Source: Bacteroidota bacterium (GTDB lineage Bacteria; Bacteroidota; Bacteroidia; Chitinophagales; LD1). From it: 64,000 nucleotides of DNA. The DNA lies in assembly GCA_018267385.1 (NCBI GenBank), contig JAFDYN010000010.1, forward strand, positions 62,001 to 126,000, in the 5' to 3' direction. Positions 18,466-29,627 of the stretch are shown here, piece by piece. Under the pieces are notes generated by a model, which worked only from the letters and a program-made list of their open reading frames with translations, searched no databases and was not told where the DNA came from. Position 1 is the stretch's first letter, and each line of letters starts with the position of its first letter. The position numbers were made by a program, and so were the translations under genes.

Positions 18466-18567
18466 GGATTTCAGGATTTCCTCCCCCGGTTTTGGACCCC
18501 TGACGTTTGGGGATAGTTAATTTTCTATTTCCCAAAGGGTTATCATGATCTTAATCACCGATTTCTA

Positions 18568-18598
18568 TTGCAGCCTATGTGTACATTGGCTATATTTA
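18568..18598 (+). promoter_or_regulatory. Promoter of the CrtC-lipocalin/GGPPS fusion gene
   Basis: TTG at 18568-18570 and TATATTTA at 18591-18598 (one base off TAnnTTTG), 20 bp apart. Transcription would start near 18606, which rules out an ATG at 18545 and supports the start at 18647. Confidence 0.55.
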
Positions 18599-18646
18599 TC
18601 GCACCACCTTATTTTTTTGCTGACCCTCAAACAATCTACCGCCACA

Positions 18647-20914
18647 ATGGCTAAAAAGACCGTTGCCGCTCCTGCTCCTGCATTTTTCCCTGCTGACTGG
18701 CCTGCTGATGGCCCTATAGACCTAAAGGTCCATGACCTGCCACACCTTTCGTCCAGTACGGAATGGTGGTATATGCATAGTCATATCAAGGCCGGCAAAA
18801 GGAATCTCTCATTGTTTGCTTCTTTCTTTTTGACCGTAGTAGGCTATGATAAGAAAGCTAAGAAGCCTGACTACGGATACTCGGTGATATGGGGCATCTC
18901 CGACCTGGACAATAAAAAGTACCATACGGTATCTCTGGTAGACAAGCGTGCACCCGAGCTGGGCATACAGCGTATCAAAAAGGGGCAGCTAGTCAAAGAC
19001 CCACACCTGAAGCGTGCAGCGCTGGAGATGCTGGACAAAGGTGTCGTGCCATATCCCGATGAGCTGCTCACACGCGATGTGGTAATAGCAAAGGATAAAC
19101 TGTCACTGGACTATGATGGTAATACTTTTAAAAAGAAGAAAGATGGCAGCTATATGCTGCACCTGGCGCACAAGGAGCTGAACATAAGTGTCGATATCGA
19201 GTTCTCTCCGCAAAAGCCGCCTACCCGTCATGGCGATAATGGTGTAGTACGTGGTGTCTCTGCAGAGGATATGTTTTACTACTTCATCCCGCGCAATAAA
19301 GTAACCGGCAAGATCAATCTGAAAGGAGAGAAGCTCGCCATCACCTCCGCCTCCGGCTGGTATGATCATGAGTTTGGCGCGCATCCGGAGAAGAAGAATG
19401 AAAGCGATGAGGCGAAGAAGGATGTATCGTGGAACTGGATCGCCGTACAGCTGGACAATAAATGTGAGCTATCCGCTTATGACCTCGTAGACCTCAAGAC
19501 GGGTGAAGACTGCGGCTCCTTTATCATACTGATAGATGAGAAAGGCAACAGGCATCACTCGCGCAATTATTCCTTCAAGCCATTTGGTGAGGAGTGGACC
19601 AGCACGCGCACTTTCAATACCTATCCTACCGCCTGGAAACTTGTCGCGCCGGATTTCAAACTAGACCTCGTCATAGAGGCGGCATTTCCCAATCAGGAAT
19701 TTGCCACGGTGATTTCTAAGCCTGCCTTCTGGGAGGGACGGATGAATGTGAGAGGTAAGATGCGTGGCAAAGCAGTAGCGGGCCCGGCATATATCGAGCG
19801 CCATGGTTTCGTCAATAGCTCCGATCTTAAATCCTTCCTCAAGGCGGTCTCAAAGCAAACACTGCGCTCGGTGAATAAGATCATCCCCCTGTCTTTCGGC
19901 CAGCAGAAATTTGAAGAACTGGTATCAAAGCGTGGCAACTACCACCTCACAGAAAACCTGGACAAAGAAGCATACATCGATACATTCCTCCGACCTATAC
20001 GTGAGATCACAGACCGTAGCGGCAAGTCGTGGCGCTCCTACGCGACCATCGCCTGCTGCGATGTAGTAGGTGGCAACTCACAGGTGGCTATAGACTGGCT
20101 CGCGCTGCCTGAGCTGATGCACGTAGGCTCCCTCATGGTAGATGATGTGCAAGATAAATCTCACGTGCGTCGTGGCGGCCCTGCGGCCCATACGGTGCAT
20201 GGTGAGGCTACAGCTATCAACTCTGGTACTGCGGCCTACTTCCTCGGGCAGATATGTATCTACGAGGCGGATATGCACTATGAGGAGAAGGTGCAGGTGT
20301 ACAACTGGTACTTTGAGGCTATGCGTGCCTCTCACAGCGGCCAGGCTATGGATATCAAAGGCCTGGACTACATGATGCCCGCCGCGCTGAAAGATGATAA
20401 GGTGGCAAAGCTCCTCGCCAAGCGCGTACTCGCCACACACCGGCTCAAGTCTGCCGCACCCGCCAGCTACCTGGCCCAGATCGGAGCGCTGATAGGTGGC
20501 GCTTCTCAGGAGCAGATCGCTGCACTGGGAGACTACTATGAGAAGCTAGGTATCGCTTTCCAGATCATAGATGACACTCTTAATCTGAAAGGATTTAAAG
20601 ATAACCTCAAGACCAAAGCTGAGGACATCACGGCGGGCAAGATCACCTACCCCATAGCGGTAGGTATGGCGATGCTGGATCAGAATGACCGCAAGAAGCT
20701 CTGGAGGATAGTCAGCGCAAAGACCAGTGATGTAGACCAGCTCGCACAGGCTATAGCCCTGCTGGATAAACATAAAGTGATAGAAAAATGTGAGCGTGAA
20801 GCACGTACCATGCTGGAGAAAGCCTGGTGGCGCCTCGAGCCGCTGCTGCGCGACTCTATGGTGAAGCTAAACATGCGCGCTTTCGGCTGGTTTGTACTGG
20901 ACAGGACGTACTGA
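18647..20914 (+). CDS. Fusion: CrtC/AttH-like lipocalin domain + geranylgeranyl-diphosphate-synthase-like domain
   Basis: A two-domain cytosolic protein of about 755 residues. Residues about 15-385 are a CrtC/AttH double lipocalin, with SSTEWWYMHSH near the start and a central W-Y-D-H-E motif (Trp 238, Asp 240, Glu 242) followed by SWNWIAVQLDN. In carotenoid 1,2-hydratases the Asp of this region is the proposed proton donor (from memory). Residues about 440-755 are an isoprenyl diphosphate synthase: Lys 460 and Arg 463 (SGKSWRS), first Asp-rich motif DDVQD (499-503), Arg 508-Arg 509-Gly, and second motif DDTLN (642-646). The SLMVDDVQDKSxxRRG and DDxLNL forms resemble eukaryotic (type III) GGPP synthases, and the Asp-rich motifs are intact. 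It probably makes a C15-C20 diphosphate; the lipocalin part might hydrate or cyclise the product. No terpene cyclase lies nearby. The frame extends to 18545, but the promoter favours 18647. Confidence 0.85.
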   Translation: MAKKTVAAPAPAFFPADWPADGPIDLKVHDLPHLSSSTEWWYMHSHIKAGKRNLSLFASFFLTVVGYDKKAKKPDYGYSVIWGISDLDNKKYHTVSLVDKRAPELGIQRIKKGQLVKDPHLKRAALEMLDKGVVPYPDELLTRDVVIAKDKLSLDYDGNTFKKKKDGSYMLHLAHKELNISVDIEFSPQKPPTRHGDNGVVRGVSAEDMFYYFIPRNKVTGKINLKGEKLAITSASGWYDHEFGAHPEKKNESDEAKKDVSWNWIAVQLDNKCELSAYDLVDLKTGEDCGSFIILIDEKGNRHHSRNYSFKPFGEEWTSTRTFNTYPTAWKLVAPDFKLDLVIEAAFPNQEFATVISKPAFWEGRMNVRGKMRGKAVAGPAYIERHGFVNSSDLKSFLKAVSKQTLRSVNKIIPLSFGQQKFEELVSKRGNYHLTENLDKEAYIDTFLRPIREITDRSGKSWRSYATIACCDVVGGNSQVAIDWLALPELMHVGSLMVDDVQDKSHVRRGGPAAHTVHGEATAINSGTAAYFLGQICIYEADMHYEEKVQVYNWYFEAMRASHSGQAMDIKGLDYMMPAALKDDKVAKLLAKRVLATHRLKSAAPASYLAQIGALIGGASQEQIAALGDYYEKLGIAFQIIDDTLNLKGFKDNLKTKAEDITAGKITYPIAVGMAMLDQNDRKKLWRIVSAKTSDVDQLAQAIALLDKHKVIEKCEREARTMLEKAWWRLEPLLRDSMVKLNMRAFGWFVLDRTY

Positions 20915-24981: not shown

Positions 24982-27063
24982 TTATTTGGATGCAGAGATC
25001 ACCATGATCTTGGTGTCTACCACTTGCCCATCTACATACATAGAGTAGGTGTAGGTACCAGCGCTCAGTTCAGATGCATTGAGTGTCACAGCGCCTTTGC
25101 CTTTACTAGTTAGCTCGAGGTGTTTGAGCAGCTTGCCATCTAGAGAGTTGATATCCATGTAGGCTGCAGTGCCTGTGTTGAGCACATAGCTGATGGTAGT
25201 CTGGCCGGAGAATGGATTAGGTACATTCTGGAGCAGTACGTTTGCTGTAGTGACATCAGATATAGTGCCACGCAGGGAGGCACAGCCACCATTGCAGATA
25301 TCATTCAGTTGGCTTTGCAGCGCAGCTACTTTATCGGCCAATACTTTATTCTCGGTAGTCTTGGCGTCGAGTTCCTGTACGGCCTCTACGAGGTATGGTA
25401 TCAGGCCTGTATAGTTTACTGCTTTGTAAGAAATTGAAGATGGATTTTTGCCCTCGTCTGTCGTTACAAATTTTGAATCTCTCACAAGGTCCGGAAGTAC
25501 CTTTTCCAACTCTTGAGCTATGAATCCTTGTTGCTTCTCATTAGGAAAGTTAATGTGTTTATAACTTTCATGATCGAAAAAGTATTCTTTGGGGCTGAGC
25601 AATTTTATCTTGTCTAGCGCTCCCGAAATGTTTGTGACGTTCTTCTTAAATTTTTGATCTGAGACGATCCAAGGGCTACTCGTAGCACTCAGGTATCCAT
25701 TGACCTGGACATCGCCTACAAAAAGACCTGCAAGATTAGTAGAACCAGCTGGTCCGGATGCCTGTGCTTCTACTCCTATATTGCTCGTTCCGCCTCCGCC
25801 TACTAAATAGCCTCCTAATGTGTAATTACCAGTGCTGGTGACACTAGCGACGGAGAGTAAACCTACATTGTTGGTAGCATTGGAAGAAGATATACGCAGG
25901 CCTGTATTGTTCTGATTAACATTGTCTACATAGATATCACATCCAAAAGAAGCGTTTGACATTGGAGTATTAGTCACGTCATGATTTGTGATCTTCAGTG
26001 CCACCGGTTCTATATCATCTCCTACTTGTGGCCTATAGATGTCTAGCTTGGCTCCGGGAGTACATACACCTATACCTACTCGTCCCTGCGGACCGCCTGT
26101 AGGTATCGTAGCTGGTCCATCAGGGAATAGCAAATTATGATTGTTCAATGGTACAAACCTGTCCGATGTCAGTGCTGCAGGATTGCCAGTTGTAGTGCAG
26201 GCATCTTGTCCCAGTTGTACTCTATTGCTGGCATCGAGAGACGTACCGTTTAGCGCGCCTACCACTACAGATCCCGATGACTTCTTTACATTATTACTCG
26301 CATCCAGCACCAGATAGCTGCTCGGTGTAGCGGTGCCCAGATTATCAAAGCGGATATTGCTCGATAGTGCATCTACATGCAGACGCACGGCAGGGCTGGC
26401 CGTGCCGATGCCGACGTTGTCTATAGTAGATACACGCCCCAGTACGATCGAGTTGCTGGTATTAACAGTAGCCCATGCTCCTATGGCAGTAGCATACTGC
26501 AGATTGCCACTACCTACATCGCCCTGATATCCCAGTATTGTATTAAGGGCTCCAGTCGTATTATGTGATCCGGTTTTTGTCCCGATAAAGGTATTTTGAT
26601 AGCCTGTAGTGGTCAGACCGCCTGTTGTGACACCCAGAAAGGCGTTGTCATATCCGGTTGTACAGTTTGCGCCGGCTACATTACCTATATATGTATTAGT
26701 CCCGCCAGTGGTCAGAGAGAGGCCAGCCTGTGATCCAAAGAGTGAGTTTTGACTCCCCGTATTAAGCGTTCCTGTTTTATACCCGAAAAAGACGTTATCG
26801 GAACTGTTATTACTCGTGCCTGACAGTGAACCGAAAAAGCAATTGAATTTGTTGGCATTGGCATTGCCTGCTTTTTGTCCAAAGAAGCTATTGTCTGAAC
26901 CACCAGTGCCAGCAGCCGCACCCACGGAGGTGATGTCAGATGCGACATTATTTACACTGACTGTACTAGGACTAGTGCTAAATTTGATTGATACGCCTTG
27001 GCCAAAGATCATATTGGTGGCGAGTGCTAGGGCTGTGAAAAGCGTAATCTTTAATGGTTTCAT
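24982..27063 (-). CDS. Tail-fibre-like surface protein with S74 self-cleaving chaperone and T9SS sorting domain
   Basis: A 693-residue exported protein. The signal peptide (residues 1-22, ending IFGQ) is followed by about six imperfect repeats of the form N-S/T-F-x-G-x-x-A/T-G (about 55-185), a left-handed beta-roll of the kind found in trimeric adhesins. A beta-rich shaft with VGIGT motifs (about 210-470) leads to a peptidase S74/endosialidase chaperone domain (about 472-600) with SDQKFKKN, GFIAQELEKVLPD and YTGLIPYLVEAVQEL. A coiled-coil (about 565-590) and a T9SS type A sorting domain (last 80 residues) close it. The Ser and the Lys five residues later match the S74 dyad as I recall it. 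S74 domains normally end the protein, so a T9SS tail after one is notable. Confidence 0.88.
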   Translation of the reverse strand: MKPLKITLFTALALATNMIFGQGVSIKFSTSPSTVSVNNVASDITSVGAAAGTGGSDNSFFGQKAGNANANKFNCFFGSLSGTSNNSSDNVFFGYKTGTLNTGSQNSLFGSQAGLSLTTGGTNTYIGNVAGANCTTGYDNAFLGVTTGGLTTTGYQNTFIGTKTGSHNTTGALNTILGYQGDVGSGNLQYATAIGAWATVNTSNSIVLGRVSTIDNVGIGTASPAVRLHVDALSSNIRFDNLGTATPSSYLVLDASNNVKKSSGSVVVGALNGTSLDASNRVQLGQDACTTTGNPAALTSDRFVPLNNHNLLFPDGPATIPTGGPQGRVGIGVCTPGAKLDIYRPQVGDDIEPVALKITNHDVTNTPMSNASFGCDIYVDNVNQNNTGLRISSSNATNNVGLLSVASVTSTGNYTLGGYLVGGGGTSNIGVEAQASGPAGSTNLAGLFVGDVQVNGYLSATSSPWIVSDQKFKKNVTNISGALDKIKLLSPKEYFFDHESYKHINFPNEKQQGFIAQELEKVLPDLVRDSKFVTTDEGKNPSSISYKAVNYTGLIPYLVEAVQELDAKTTENKVLADKVAALQSQLNDICNGGCASLRGTISDVTTANVLLQNVPNPFSGQTTISYVLNTGTAAYMDINSLDGKLLKHLELTSKGKGAVTLNASELSAGTYTYSMYVDGQVVDTKIMVISASK

Positions 27064-27081
27064 GTTTTATAATTTATGACG

Positions 27082-27115
27082 CCTACTTTGTAAGAAATGG
27101 GTGTTCGGCTAGTCC
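27082..27115. repeat. Direct repeat copy 1, upstream of the S74 gene
   Basis: A 34-base unit beginning CCTACTTTGTAA and containing GGTGTTCGG then AGTCC. It is nearly identical to the unit at 27319-27350, with a 2-base length difference. It lies 19 bp upstream of the S74 gene's ATG (minus strand). A third copy was not seen before the neighbouring gene at 29627. Confidence 0.75.
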
Positions 27116-27318
27116 CATAGATGTACATAGCGATGCTACGCAGCATGACTGTCAGGATGTGAAAGTGAAAAGAGGGAGGGAGGTTTACGGTCTGTGGGGA
27201 TACGTCATCAATAGTCAAAGTCAGATCGGTGATCATGGATCAGCCTGTACGATGGGGTAGGCGGAGGCTGCGGCTACTCAGTTGGGGATAAATAGATTCA
27301 TGTCATAGTGTTTCAGTA

Positions 27319-27350
27319 CCTACTTTGTAATAAAGGTGTTCGGTGAGTCC
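27319..27350. repeat. Direct repeat copy 2, upstream of the S74 gene
   Basis: The second, 32-base copy of the unit at 27082-27115, in the same orientation and about 237 bp away. The stretch between the copies (27116-27318) has no gene and no hairpin that I can support. The 434-bp spacer 27064-27497 otherwise holds only the terminator at its far end. Confidence 0.75.
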
Positions 27351-27446
27351 TTGTTATGCTTCATCAAGATAAGCATCTTATATGATGAAAACGTTTCATA
27401 AAGTAAAAATAATGGCTCGCTGCGCAACCTATTTGCGCGCAGAAAT

Positions 27447-27471
27447 AAAAAAGGCCGGTATTAGACCGGCC
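27447..27471 (-). terminator. Terminator of the glycine-rich adhesin gene
   Basis: A 7-bp stem GGCCGGT/ACCGGCC with an ATTAG loop. On the minus strand it is followed by six T (A-run 27447-27452). It lies 27 bp after the stop. Confidence 0.9.
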
Positions 27472-27497
27472 TTGATATGAGGTTAATGTCATTCCTA

Positions 27498-29627
27498 TTA
27501 TGGGCAGGTAGGATTTACTCCGACTGGAGGTGTACCTGAGTAAACATAGGTGAAACCATTTGCTTTCACGCCGCACCCAGCTGCACCACCGTTGCCGGGG
27601 CCACATGCACCTGTACCACCTATAGGTCCACGTGCTGAGCCGCCAGCATTGCCTGGCTGACCCAATGCGCCACCATCGCCGCCTACACCGGCCCAGTAGT
27701 AGCTACCAAAGCTAAGGAAACAAGGGCCCTGCTGGCAATGAGGACCACCGGTACCTGGCGCGGCGAGCGTACCCGCTGTACCGGCTGAGCATGGATAGGC
27801 GCCACCGCCATTGCTTCCACCGTTGCCACCTACCGCGCCGGCACCGCCGCCGCCGCCGGTGCCTGGCCTGATATCTACAGTGCAGAGTGTGATGGATAGG
27901 TCTTCACCTGCGCCACCGCCGCCGCCGCCGCCGCCGAGCACACCATTATTGCGTATCGTCACGCCGTTGGTCACGATGTTGATCGCGTTACCACCGGGAT
28001 AGCCATCACCTATACCGGTACAGCTACCTAGATAGTTGCCATAGTTTGTTTTGTCTCCACCATCACCTCCACGTCCGGCAATAGTACCATTGTTAATAAT
28101 GACGATCTGAGAACCCGCTGTAAAATTACCCGTGGTCATGGAAGGTTGTGCTACGCCGCTATTCACTACGTTACTACCTACGACTACTCCCGCATCTACG
28201 ATGAAGGTATCTACCACGGGGCATGTAGGCTGGCCGGCTAGTACAAACAGATTTACGTTATTAGTGTTAGCGGAGATGTGGATGGCTTGAGGCCCATTGA
28301 TGATAAGCGTATAGGTAGCAGTAGATATGCTTACACCCACTTGTGAGGTCACTATGATCTGATAGGTACCTTGCAGTGCACAGCTGGAGCTTATATCCAT
28401 GGTAGTAGAGCCGGGTACCTGGGGATTTGGATTACCAAAACTCACAGAAAGCCCCGGATTACTAGGTGTGACTTGATAGCTCAATATAGCGTTGCCTGCA
28501 TTGACTGCGCAGGCACTAGGGTTGCCTATGGTCACTGTAGCCGATGCTACTACACCGCCGCCCTGTGCTGTAGCGAGACTGATGGTGCTTGTATTAGGCG
28601 TCAGAGTCACAGCAAAGTCAAATACTGTCAAGGTATAAGTCAAGGTCCTAACTGTAGAGCCTGAAGTAGCCAGGATGGTAATCGTGTAGGTGCCGTTAGC
28701 TGCACTAGGGAGTGCCGTCATGGTCATGATCGAGGTGCCTGTAGGTAGAAGGTAATTATTAGAGAAGTTGACCAGTACACCCGCTGGTACGCCGGCAGCG
28801 GAGAGCACCACCGGTGAGGCGGTACCCGTCACGAGGCTCACTGTGAGCGTATCTGCTACGCTACCAAAGTTAGATTTGAAGAGACAATCAGAGGTATGAC
28901 TTTGTGAAACGGAATAGTCAAAAGCACAAACTGTCTGGCCCACATTGGCCCAGCAGGTACCATTCCAGAATTGATGCACGTTGATCGTACTATTGTATAC
29001 CATCAGTCCGGCAGGAGGCGAGGTGATAGCTGCTATCTGTACATCTGTGAGGGCTGGTACGAGTATACCCTTGGTAGTACTCTGTATATCCAGTATCGCA
29101 TGTGAGTCAGGTGTAGGCTGGTTGATACCTACAGCACCTGCGGTAGTCGCGCGGATCACCTCCGTATTGTTTGATTTCATCACAAAGTCCTGCGCATCGG
29201 TAGTACCTGCAAAATTTGTTCCTGCGGTAGTACCTGAGTTGCCATTGGTGAGCCATGCTGCCTGCGTACTGGTCAATATGTGATTGCCATCGCTATCTAC
29301 TACTGTCACATAGCCACCTGGCGTGAAGTAGACAGTATTATTATATGCAGAGGCATGCACAGGGATATTTGGATTGCAAAGGTTGCTCCATGAGGTGCCG
29401 TTGTAGAGCACATAGCAGTTTGTATCTGTATCGTAGATCACGAGGCCTGTGGCAGGCGAAGAAATAAGACCGACTTTAGTCCTCGGCACGAGGAAGCCCT
29501 TGTCAGTCGCCGTCAGGTCGAGCACGGCACTCGGATCGGGGTTGGGATTGCCGATGCCGACATTGCCCTGTCCGTACGCATTAGATATTAAACAAATAAG
29601 AGATAAAACGAATAAAAACTTCTTCAT
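27498..29627 (-). CDS. Glycine-rich, phage-tail-tip-like surface adhesin
   Basis: A 709-residue exported protein with a signal peptide (residues 1-19, ending AYGQ). Residues 20-230 contain GNVGIG, VLDL and PRT/PALTDVQ motifs twice (about 32-60 and 168-200), the start of many Bacteroidota tail-fibre-like proteins. Residues about 235-450 are beta-sandwich repeats. Residues about 530-690 are extremely Gly-rich: INNGTIAGRGGDGG, then runs of up to eight Gly with N-N-G-V spacers. This resembles the polyglycine type II domain of phage tail-tip adhesins such as T-even Gp38. It has no T9SS sorting tail and no S74 domain, so its export or anchoring route is unclear. Its neighbour at 24982 carries both. 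A receptor-binding role is inferred. Confidence 0.8.
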   Translation of the reverse strand: MKKFLFVLSLICLISNAYGQGNVGIGNPNPDPSAVLDLTATDKGFLVPRTKVGLISSPATGLVIYDTDTNCYVLYNGTSWSNLCNPNIPVHASAYNNTVYFTPGGYVTVVDSDGNHILTSTQAAWLTNGNSGTTAGTNFAGTTDAQDFVMKSNNTEVIRATTAGAVGINQPTPDSHAILDIQSTTKGILVPALTDVQIAAITSPPAGLMVYNSTINVHQFWNGTCWANVGQTVCAFDYSVSQSHTSDCLFKSNFGSVADTLTVSLVTGTASPVVLSAAGVPAGVLVNFSNNYLLPTGTSIMTMTALPSAANGTYTITILATSGSTVRTLTYTLTVFDFAVTLTPNTSTISLATAQGGGVVASATVTIGNPSACAVNAGNAILSYQVTPSNPGLSVSFGNPNPQVPGSTTMDISSSCALQGTYQIIVTSQVGVSISTATYTLIINGPQAIHISANTNNVNLFVLAGQPTCPVVDTFIVDAGVVVGSNVVNSGVAQPSMTTGNFTAGSQIVIINNGTIAGRGGDGGDKTNYGNYLGSCTGIGDGYPGGNAINIVTNGVTIRNNGVLGGGGGGGGAGEDLSITLCTVDIRPGTGGGGGAGAVGGNGGSNGGGAYPCSAGTAGTLAAPGTGGPHCQQGPCFLSFGSYYWAGVGGDGGALGQPGNAGGSARGPIGGTGACGPGNGGAAGCGVKANGFTYVYSGTPPVGVNPTCP

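Follow-up and report, generated by a model that had tools for sequence, protein, structure and literature searches.

The carotenoid 1,2-hydratase CrtC of Rubrivivax gelatinosus (RgCrtC) is a stand-alone, membrane-linked enzyme that acts on carotenoids, where it hydrates the terminal isopropylidene group (PMC4717167, PMC12402844). Kievitone hydratase of Nectria haematococca (7a0q/7a0t), a secreted and unfused fungal enzyme with isoflavonoid substrates, hydrates the same kind of group (PMC5805349), and a 25-phosphosteroid lyase with the same fold acts on the same tertiary carbon (PMC11061730). In RgCrtC, D268 is essential, as are W110, W283, and W285 (PMC12402844) and H239, W241, and Y266 (PMC4717167); W110 stabilizes the cation (PMC12402844). 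AttH NE1406 of Nitrosomonas europaea (2ich) is an unfused protein without assigned function. The known geranylgeranyl diphosphate (GGPP) synthases are monofunctional. In the fungal bifunctional enzymes PvCPS (copalyl diphosphate) and PaFS (fusicoccadiene), a prenyltransferase half is fused behind a terpene-converting half with a terpene synthase fold. We found no published account of a fusion between a CrtC/AttH domain and a prenyl diphosphate synthase (PPS) in the CC-licensed PMC literature, in line with what the initial annotation had stated.

Here we describe such a fusion. The window, by which we mean the whole 64,000-nucleotide stretch analyzed (contig JAFDYN010000010.1 of a Chitinophagales genome), carries an open frame at 18545-20914 on the + strand. 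The start that fits the homologues is the ATG at 18647, which gives a predicted bifunctional CrtC/AttH-PPS protein of 755 amino acids (18647..20914, +, stop codon counted in) with zero internal stops. The single frame of about 755 codons first proposed for this gene is intact. An AttH/CrtC double lipocalin (residues 15-392) is joined to a complete trans-prenyl diphosphate synthase (residues 394-755; 19826..20911, +). The N-terminal barrel, also evident in the predicted fold, matches PF07143 CrtC at residues 38-244 (18758..19378, +; Pfam, 8e-17), the second barrel matches PF17186 Lipocalin_9 at residues 257-385 (19415..19801, +; Pfam, 2.5e-19), and the synthase matches PF00348 polyprenyl_synt at residues 447-705 (Pfam, 1e-45; 156 bits versus a gathering score of 27). 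All three matches exceed their gathering scores. The window's genome has two further prenyl synthases (23 to 27% identity) and, on a search of the whole genome, no CrtC gene besides the fusion. The flanks of the gene in the window encode ribosomal L3/EF-G, M43 proteases, tRNA-Val, TPR, and fatty-acid oxidation functions, and no terpene genes were found in this neighborhood.

A full-length AlphaFold2 model, built on an alignment of 47 window and locus sequences, had a pLDDT of 89.4 and a pTM of 0.88 across the 755 residues. Compared by VIA-align, residues 15-390 of the model matched AttH 2ich (Z, 35.6; 3.0 Å; 309 aligned), residues 20-392 matched kievitone hydratase (Z, 32), and the C-terminal half matched the archaeal GGPP synthase 1wy0 of P. 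horikoshii over the whole domain (Z, 37.2; 2.2 Å; 326 aligned). AttH was the top match of the N-terminal half both by sequence (131 bits) and by fold, and kievitone hydratase was its closest fold relative of known activity (300 residues; 3.0 Å; 19% identity). When the lipocalin half was modeled alone (pLDDT, 86.5), the fold Z was 35 for AttH and 32 for kievitone hydratase, followed by the fungal pericyclases CghA, Fsa2, and Phm7 (24 to 26) and 25-phosphosteroid lyase (23), with the next matches below 9. The double-lipocalin fold, together with CrtC and Lipocalin_9 matches above the gathering score, places this half in the AttH/CrtC superfamily, whose catalytic Asp and WxW pair it keeps; in correction of the original CrtC-type label, the half is nearest to AttH and kievitone hydratase. 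Likewise, the PF00348 match and the isoprenoid synthase fold place the C-terminal half among the trans-isoprenyl diphosphate synthases. The fusion is genuine, and both halves are complete and confidently folded in the model, with their active sites intact. A partner of terpene synthase fold, as in the fungal bifunctional prenyltransferase-cyclases, was ruled out, the partner being a double lipocalin.

Rather than being unique, the fusion belongs to an old, widespread family. The gene occurs in 24 of the 30 genomes of the window's own family (a few copies being cut by contig ends) and in 1 of 31 genomes sampled from other families of the same order. A contig scan retained 80 loci, mostly full-length and with 41 to 96% identity, from Chitinophagales/Saprospiraceae, Spirosoma, Telluribacter, Flavobacterium, many Myxococcota, the cyanobacterium Iningainema tapete, a Verrucomicrobium, and a Thermoplasmata MAG. 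Frequencies among sampled genomes were 30/237 for Myxococcota, 3/395 for Bacteroidota (the window's own counted, and one member divergent), 1/292 for Cyanobacteria, and 1/241 for Verrucomicrobiota, the single carrier in each of the last two being the starting genome itself. Tolypothrix (33% identity) and Streptomyces canus (26.5%) carry more distant full-length fusions on plasmids, and public records annotate both as "polyprenyl synthetase family protein." No viral relatives were found in viral_contigs, and none of the control genomes searched for PF07143 carries it. One locus (L073) comes from a 3.5-Mb bin titled Klebsiella pneumoniae; its fusion groups with Myxococcota, and the title looks wrong.

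Both halves are under purifying selection, with dN/dS against the nearest relatives of 0.029 to 0.040 for the CrtC half and 0.012 to 0.042 for the PPS half. Because the same two halves share one frame in many other genomes and dN/dS is low in both, the fusion lies far beyond chance. A pseudogene was ruled out by the dN/dS of ∼0.03, and a chimeric frame or assembly error was ruled out because the fusion recurs across many genomes and phyla. A tree of the PPS halves set the fused enzymes, together with one stand-alone Streptomyces relative, apart from five housekeeping synthases (SH-aLRT, 99), although its long deep branches leave the details of transfer unsure. The stand-alone relative, encoded on a plasmid of Streptomyces sp. 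NBC_01431 (L116:7989-9014), is a prenyl synthase of the fusion clade without the CrtC half, has a pair of ABC transporter genes next to it like the S. canus gene, and probably represents either loss of the CrtC half or a prefusion form. On a conjugative plasmid of Nitrosomonas stercoris (L115:7449-10954), the N-terminal half of a relative no longer matches CrtC, and a flavin monooxygenase-like gene follows directly.

We then compared the active site of the lipocalin half with those of its relatives. Its profile aligns WYDHE (residues 238-242; 19358..19372, +) and WNW (residues 262-264; 19430..19438, +) with W-L-D-R-E and W-D-W of AttH and with W-Y-D-R-Q and W-T-W of kievitone hydratase, and the spacing from D to the two W residues in AttH (15 and 17) is the same as in RgCrtC. 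By this alignment, D240, W262, and W264 are the counterparts of the RgCrtC catalytic residues D268, W283, and W285 (PMC4717167, PMC12402844), with D240 the proposed proton donor. EWWY (residues 39-42; 18761..18772, +) aligns with EWWY of AttH, and its W41 is the probable counterpart of RgCrtC W110. Among 50 aligned relatives, D240 and W262 are each kept in 49 and W264 and W41 in all 50. A second alignment covered 28 CrtC halves, three more divergent members included; there, the sole change at position 240 was Glu in S. canus. The fusion shares with RgCrtC the PF07143 domain, counterparts of the catalytic Asp and WxW, and the proposed protonation of a terminal isopropylidene group; unlike the fusion, RgCrtC has no PPS domain, and its H239, W241, and Y266 are seemingly not kept: judged by spacing alone, they would correspond to Y211, F213, and W238, and they have no clear counterpart here.

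The synthase half keeps a complete set of prenyltransferase residues. The first Asp-rich motif (FARM), DDVQD (residues 499-503; 20141..20155, +), is preceded by small residues, and the second (SARM) is DDTLN (residues 642-646; 20570..20584, +); these motifs and WYDHE sit where they had been placed initially. All 50 relatives keep D499, D500, D503, R508, R509, R463, H492, K601, Q639, D642, and D643, while K460 is found in 48/50 and the last SARM position is N in 48/50. Both Asp-rich motifs, the RR after the FARM, the IPP-binding K/R, and the pre-SARM K/Q are therefore present, as in trans-isoprenyl diphosphate synthases. No named NCBIfam equivalog reached its cutoff on this half. The best matches of segment 489-575 were the prenyltransferase of PvCPS (4.6e-11) and human GGPP synthase (1.1e-10), versus 6.8e-5 for the best prokaryotic match, and the FARM/floor segment resembles human and yeast type III GGPP synthases; over the whole domain, the profile gave 161 bits for archaeal 1wy0 versus 123 to 130 for type III enzymes. 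The "eukaryotic type III" label fits only the FARM and the chain-length floor; the domain as a whole is closest to the P. horikoshii enzyme. Judged by sequence, the PPS half is type III-like in part and not a type III member.

In type III enzymes such as yeast GGPP synthase, a Tyr-Phe/His set closes the pocket at C20. The proposed floor set of the fusion is invariant or nearly so: Y531 (50/50) and F532 (49/50), aligned to the YF pair of human GGPP synthase (20237..20242, +), and H563 (50/50; 20333..20335, +). Unlike in GGPP synthases, the residue at -5 from the FARM is Gly (G494). Because the FARM/floor segment is type III-like and Y531, F532, and H563 are conserved, C20 is the expected product length, and the half most likely makes GGPP.

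The suggestion that one protein makes a prenyl diphosphate and then hydrates or cyclizes it is still the best reading of the fold and the conserved residues, for an activity that we infer. Of the possible reactions we lean toward hydration, to which we give a little less than an even chance: a bifunctional terpenoid synthase would build the chain in its PPS half and then convert it, through D240, to a tertiary omega-alcohol. The C-terminal half would condense IPP with allylic diphosphates into an all-trans chain, most likely GGPP, whose omega isopropylidene end would be taken up, perhaps by direct hand-over, between the two barrels of the AttH/CrtC half. D240 would protonate the omega double bond, W40/W41, W262, and W264 would hold the tertiary cation, and water would quench it to the alcohol. 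This is the simplest reading since the nearest characterized fold relatives act at a terminal isopropylidene group or tertiary carbon and RgCrtC accepts C12-C20 terpenes with many different head groups, which it hydrates with full regioselectivity. Against it, geranylgeraniol is a poor substrate of RgCrtC (4% conversion), and no diphosphate is listed among the substrates reported for that enzyme (PMC12402844). We also count against hydration the Glu-240 of the Streptomyces member, the loss of the CrtC match in the Nitrosomonas plasmid member, the apparent replacement of RgCrtC H239, W241, and Y266, and the window neighborhood without terpene genes.

The gene neighborhoods of other carriers bear on what the product might be. 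Most of the 80 loci share the fusion alone, and no neighbor common to most carriers was found. In Spirosoma and Telluribacter, the fusion lies in a tight operon with genes for a GT28-type glycosyltransferase, a lipase-maturation-factor-like membrane protein, an FkbM methyltransferase, and two P450s, in varying order; this Spirosomataceae operon is probably an unstudied terpenoid cluster in cultured strains. The copy in Telluribacter humicola (L071:6794-16178), which encodes the LMF1-like membrane protein, has its genes on the same strand and is conserved (also in L065, L070, and L102). Two P450s, a methyltransferase, and a glycosyltransferase are typical tailoring for a cyclized terpenoid, and the CrtC half could be a proton-initiated class II-type cyclase. 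D240 would then donate a proton to the distal end of GGPP, and an internal double bond would trap the cation to give a cyclic diphosphate or alcohol. This would imply a new cyclase fold, with a mode of action like that of the fungal fusions of copalyl diphosphate synthase and prenyltransferase. The protonation chemistry, the residues, and the aromatic cation-stabilizing site would be the same, the best match of the FARM segment is the prenyltransferase domain of PvCPS, the bifunctional P. verruculosum enzyme, and pericyclases also belong to the fold. However, the closest characterized fold relative is a hydratase, the fungal pericyclases are clearly further away (Z, 24 to 26 versus 32 to 35), and we know of no characterized terpene cyclase with the double-lipocalin AttH/CrtC fold. 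On balance, cyclization seems unlikely, though it is the chief alternative to hydration.

Glycosyltransferases recur elsewhere. A GT28-type enzyme also adjoins the fusion in Iningainema and in the Verrucomicrobium, where an HMG-CoA synthase then follows. In Tolypothrix PCC 7601 (plasmid; L113:9622-14151) and a myxococcote (genome G870; L118:5075-9604), proteins of 1,509 amino acids combine sulfotransferase, glycosyltransferase, CrtC, Lipocalin_9, and polyprenyl_synt domains; their glycosyltransferase differs from the adjacent GT28 type, so the two linkages are separate. An alcohol product of hydration would be glycosylated or sulfated, which would explain both associations, and gene linkage suggests that in some lineages the alcohol may then also be exported. 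Genes for a DevC-type permease, an ABC ATPase, and an HlyD-type membrane fusion protein lie beside the 1,509-aa gene in Tolypothrix, and ABC transporter genes adjoin the fusion in S. canus as well. Since AttH-family genes associate with LolD-like ABC transporters (PMC2954199), the lipocalin half might be a lipid carrier that takes up the hydrophobic PPS product and delivers it to the membrane, to a glycosyltransferase, or to an ABC exporter. We find this improbable, as the conserved residues are the catalytic Asp and Trp set and an ABC ATPase lies near few loci (9/80, generic ones included).

The family name, and the two SQS_PSY genes in the window's genome, which has no other CrtC, would fit a carotenoid or squalene-type hydratase whose fused GGPP synthase feeds the same pathway. 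The neighborhoods of the fusion showed no crt genes, however, and 5 of 22 carriers (genomes of unstated completeness) have no SQS_PSY gene, including the 5.8-Mb Verrucomicrobium and the Myxococcota genome with the sulfotransferase-glycosyltransferase version. With phytoene/squalene synthase missing from these five, carotenoids are not required for the family; the co-occurrence with carotenoid synthesis that would mark CrtC proper does not hold throughout, so we do not class the family as a carotenoid hydratase, a role that we regard as very improbable.

Both halves come from known families, and the fusion is therefore a new bifunctional architecture on known parts: as in PvCPS and PaFS, the prenyltransferase half follows a half that would convert its product, and unlike in those enzymes, the converting half is a lipocalin. 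The family probably has a new product class. Because several distantly related bacterial phyla conserve this two-in-one protein, its product is probably a terpene alcohol of a new kind. We judge it somewhat probable that this widespread bacterial family consists of one-chain terpenoid synthases whose lipocalin-fold domain adds a proton to the far end of fresh GGPP and hydrates or cyclizes it, a class beside the known class I, class II, and UbiA-type enzymes, with assembly-line versions bearing glycosyltransferase and sulfotransferase domains on the same chain. If active as proposed, the enzyme would combine chain building with protonation at the omega end in a single protein, open a natural path to C20 alcohols hydrated at their terminus, and supply a defined native substrate for the AttH/CrtC fold, which is poorly understood; the terpenoid class would probably have been missed by genome mining, because public annotation says merely polyprenyl synthetase. 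Cultured carriers (Flavobacterium hydatis, F. defluvii, Spirosoma panaciterrae, and Telluribacter humicola) make the family directly testable.

Two further observations concern neighboring genes. At six loci, in Myxococcota and kin, a protein of 200 to 240 amino acids without a Pfam match is encoded directly 3' of the fusion (for example, L064:10281-10886, L068:10217-10927, and L093:10552-11223) and is possibly its partner. In the window itself, two large proteins are encoded at 24982-29627 on the - strand: one combines a Peptidase_S74 chaperone with a Por secretion tail, and the other has a weak GP38 phage-adhesin match.
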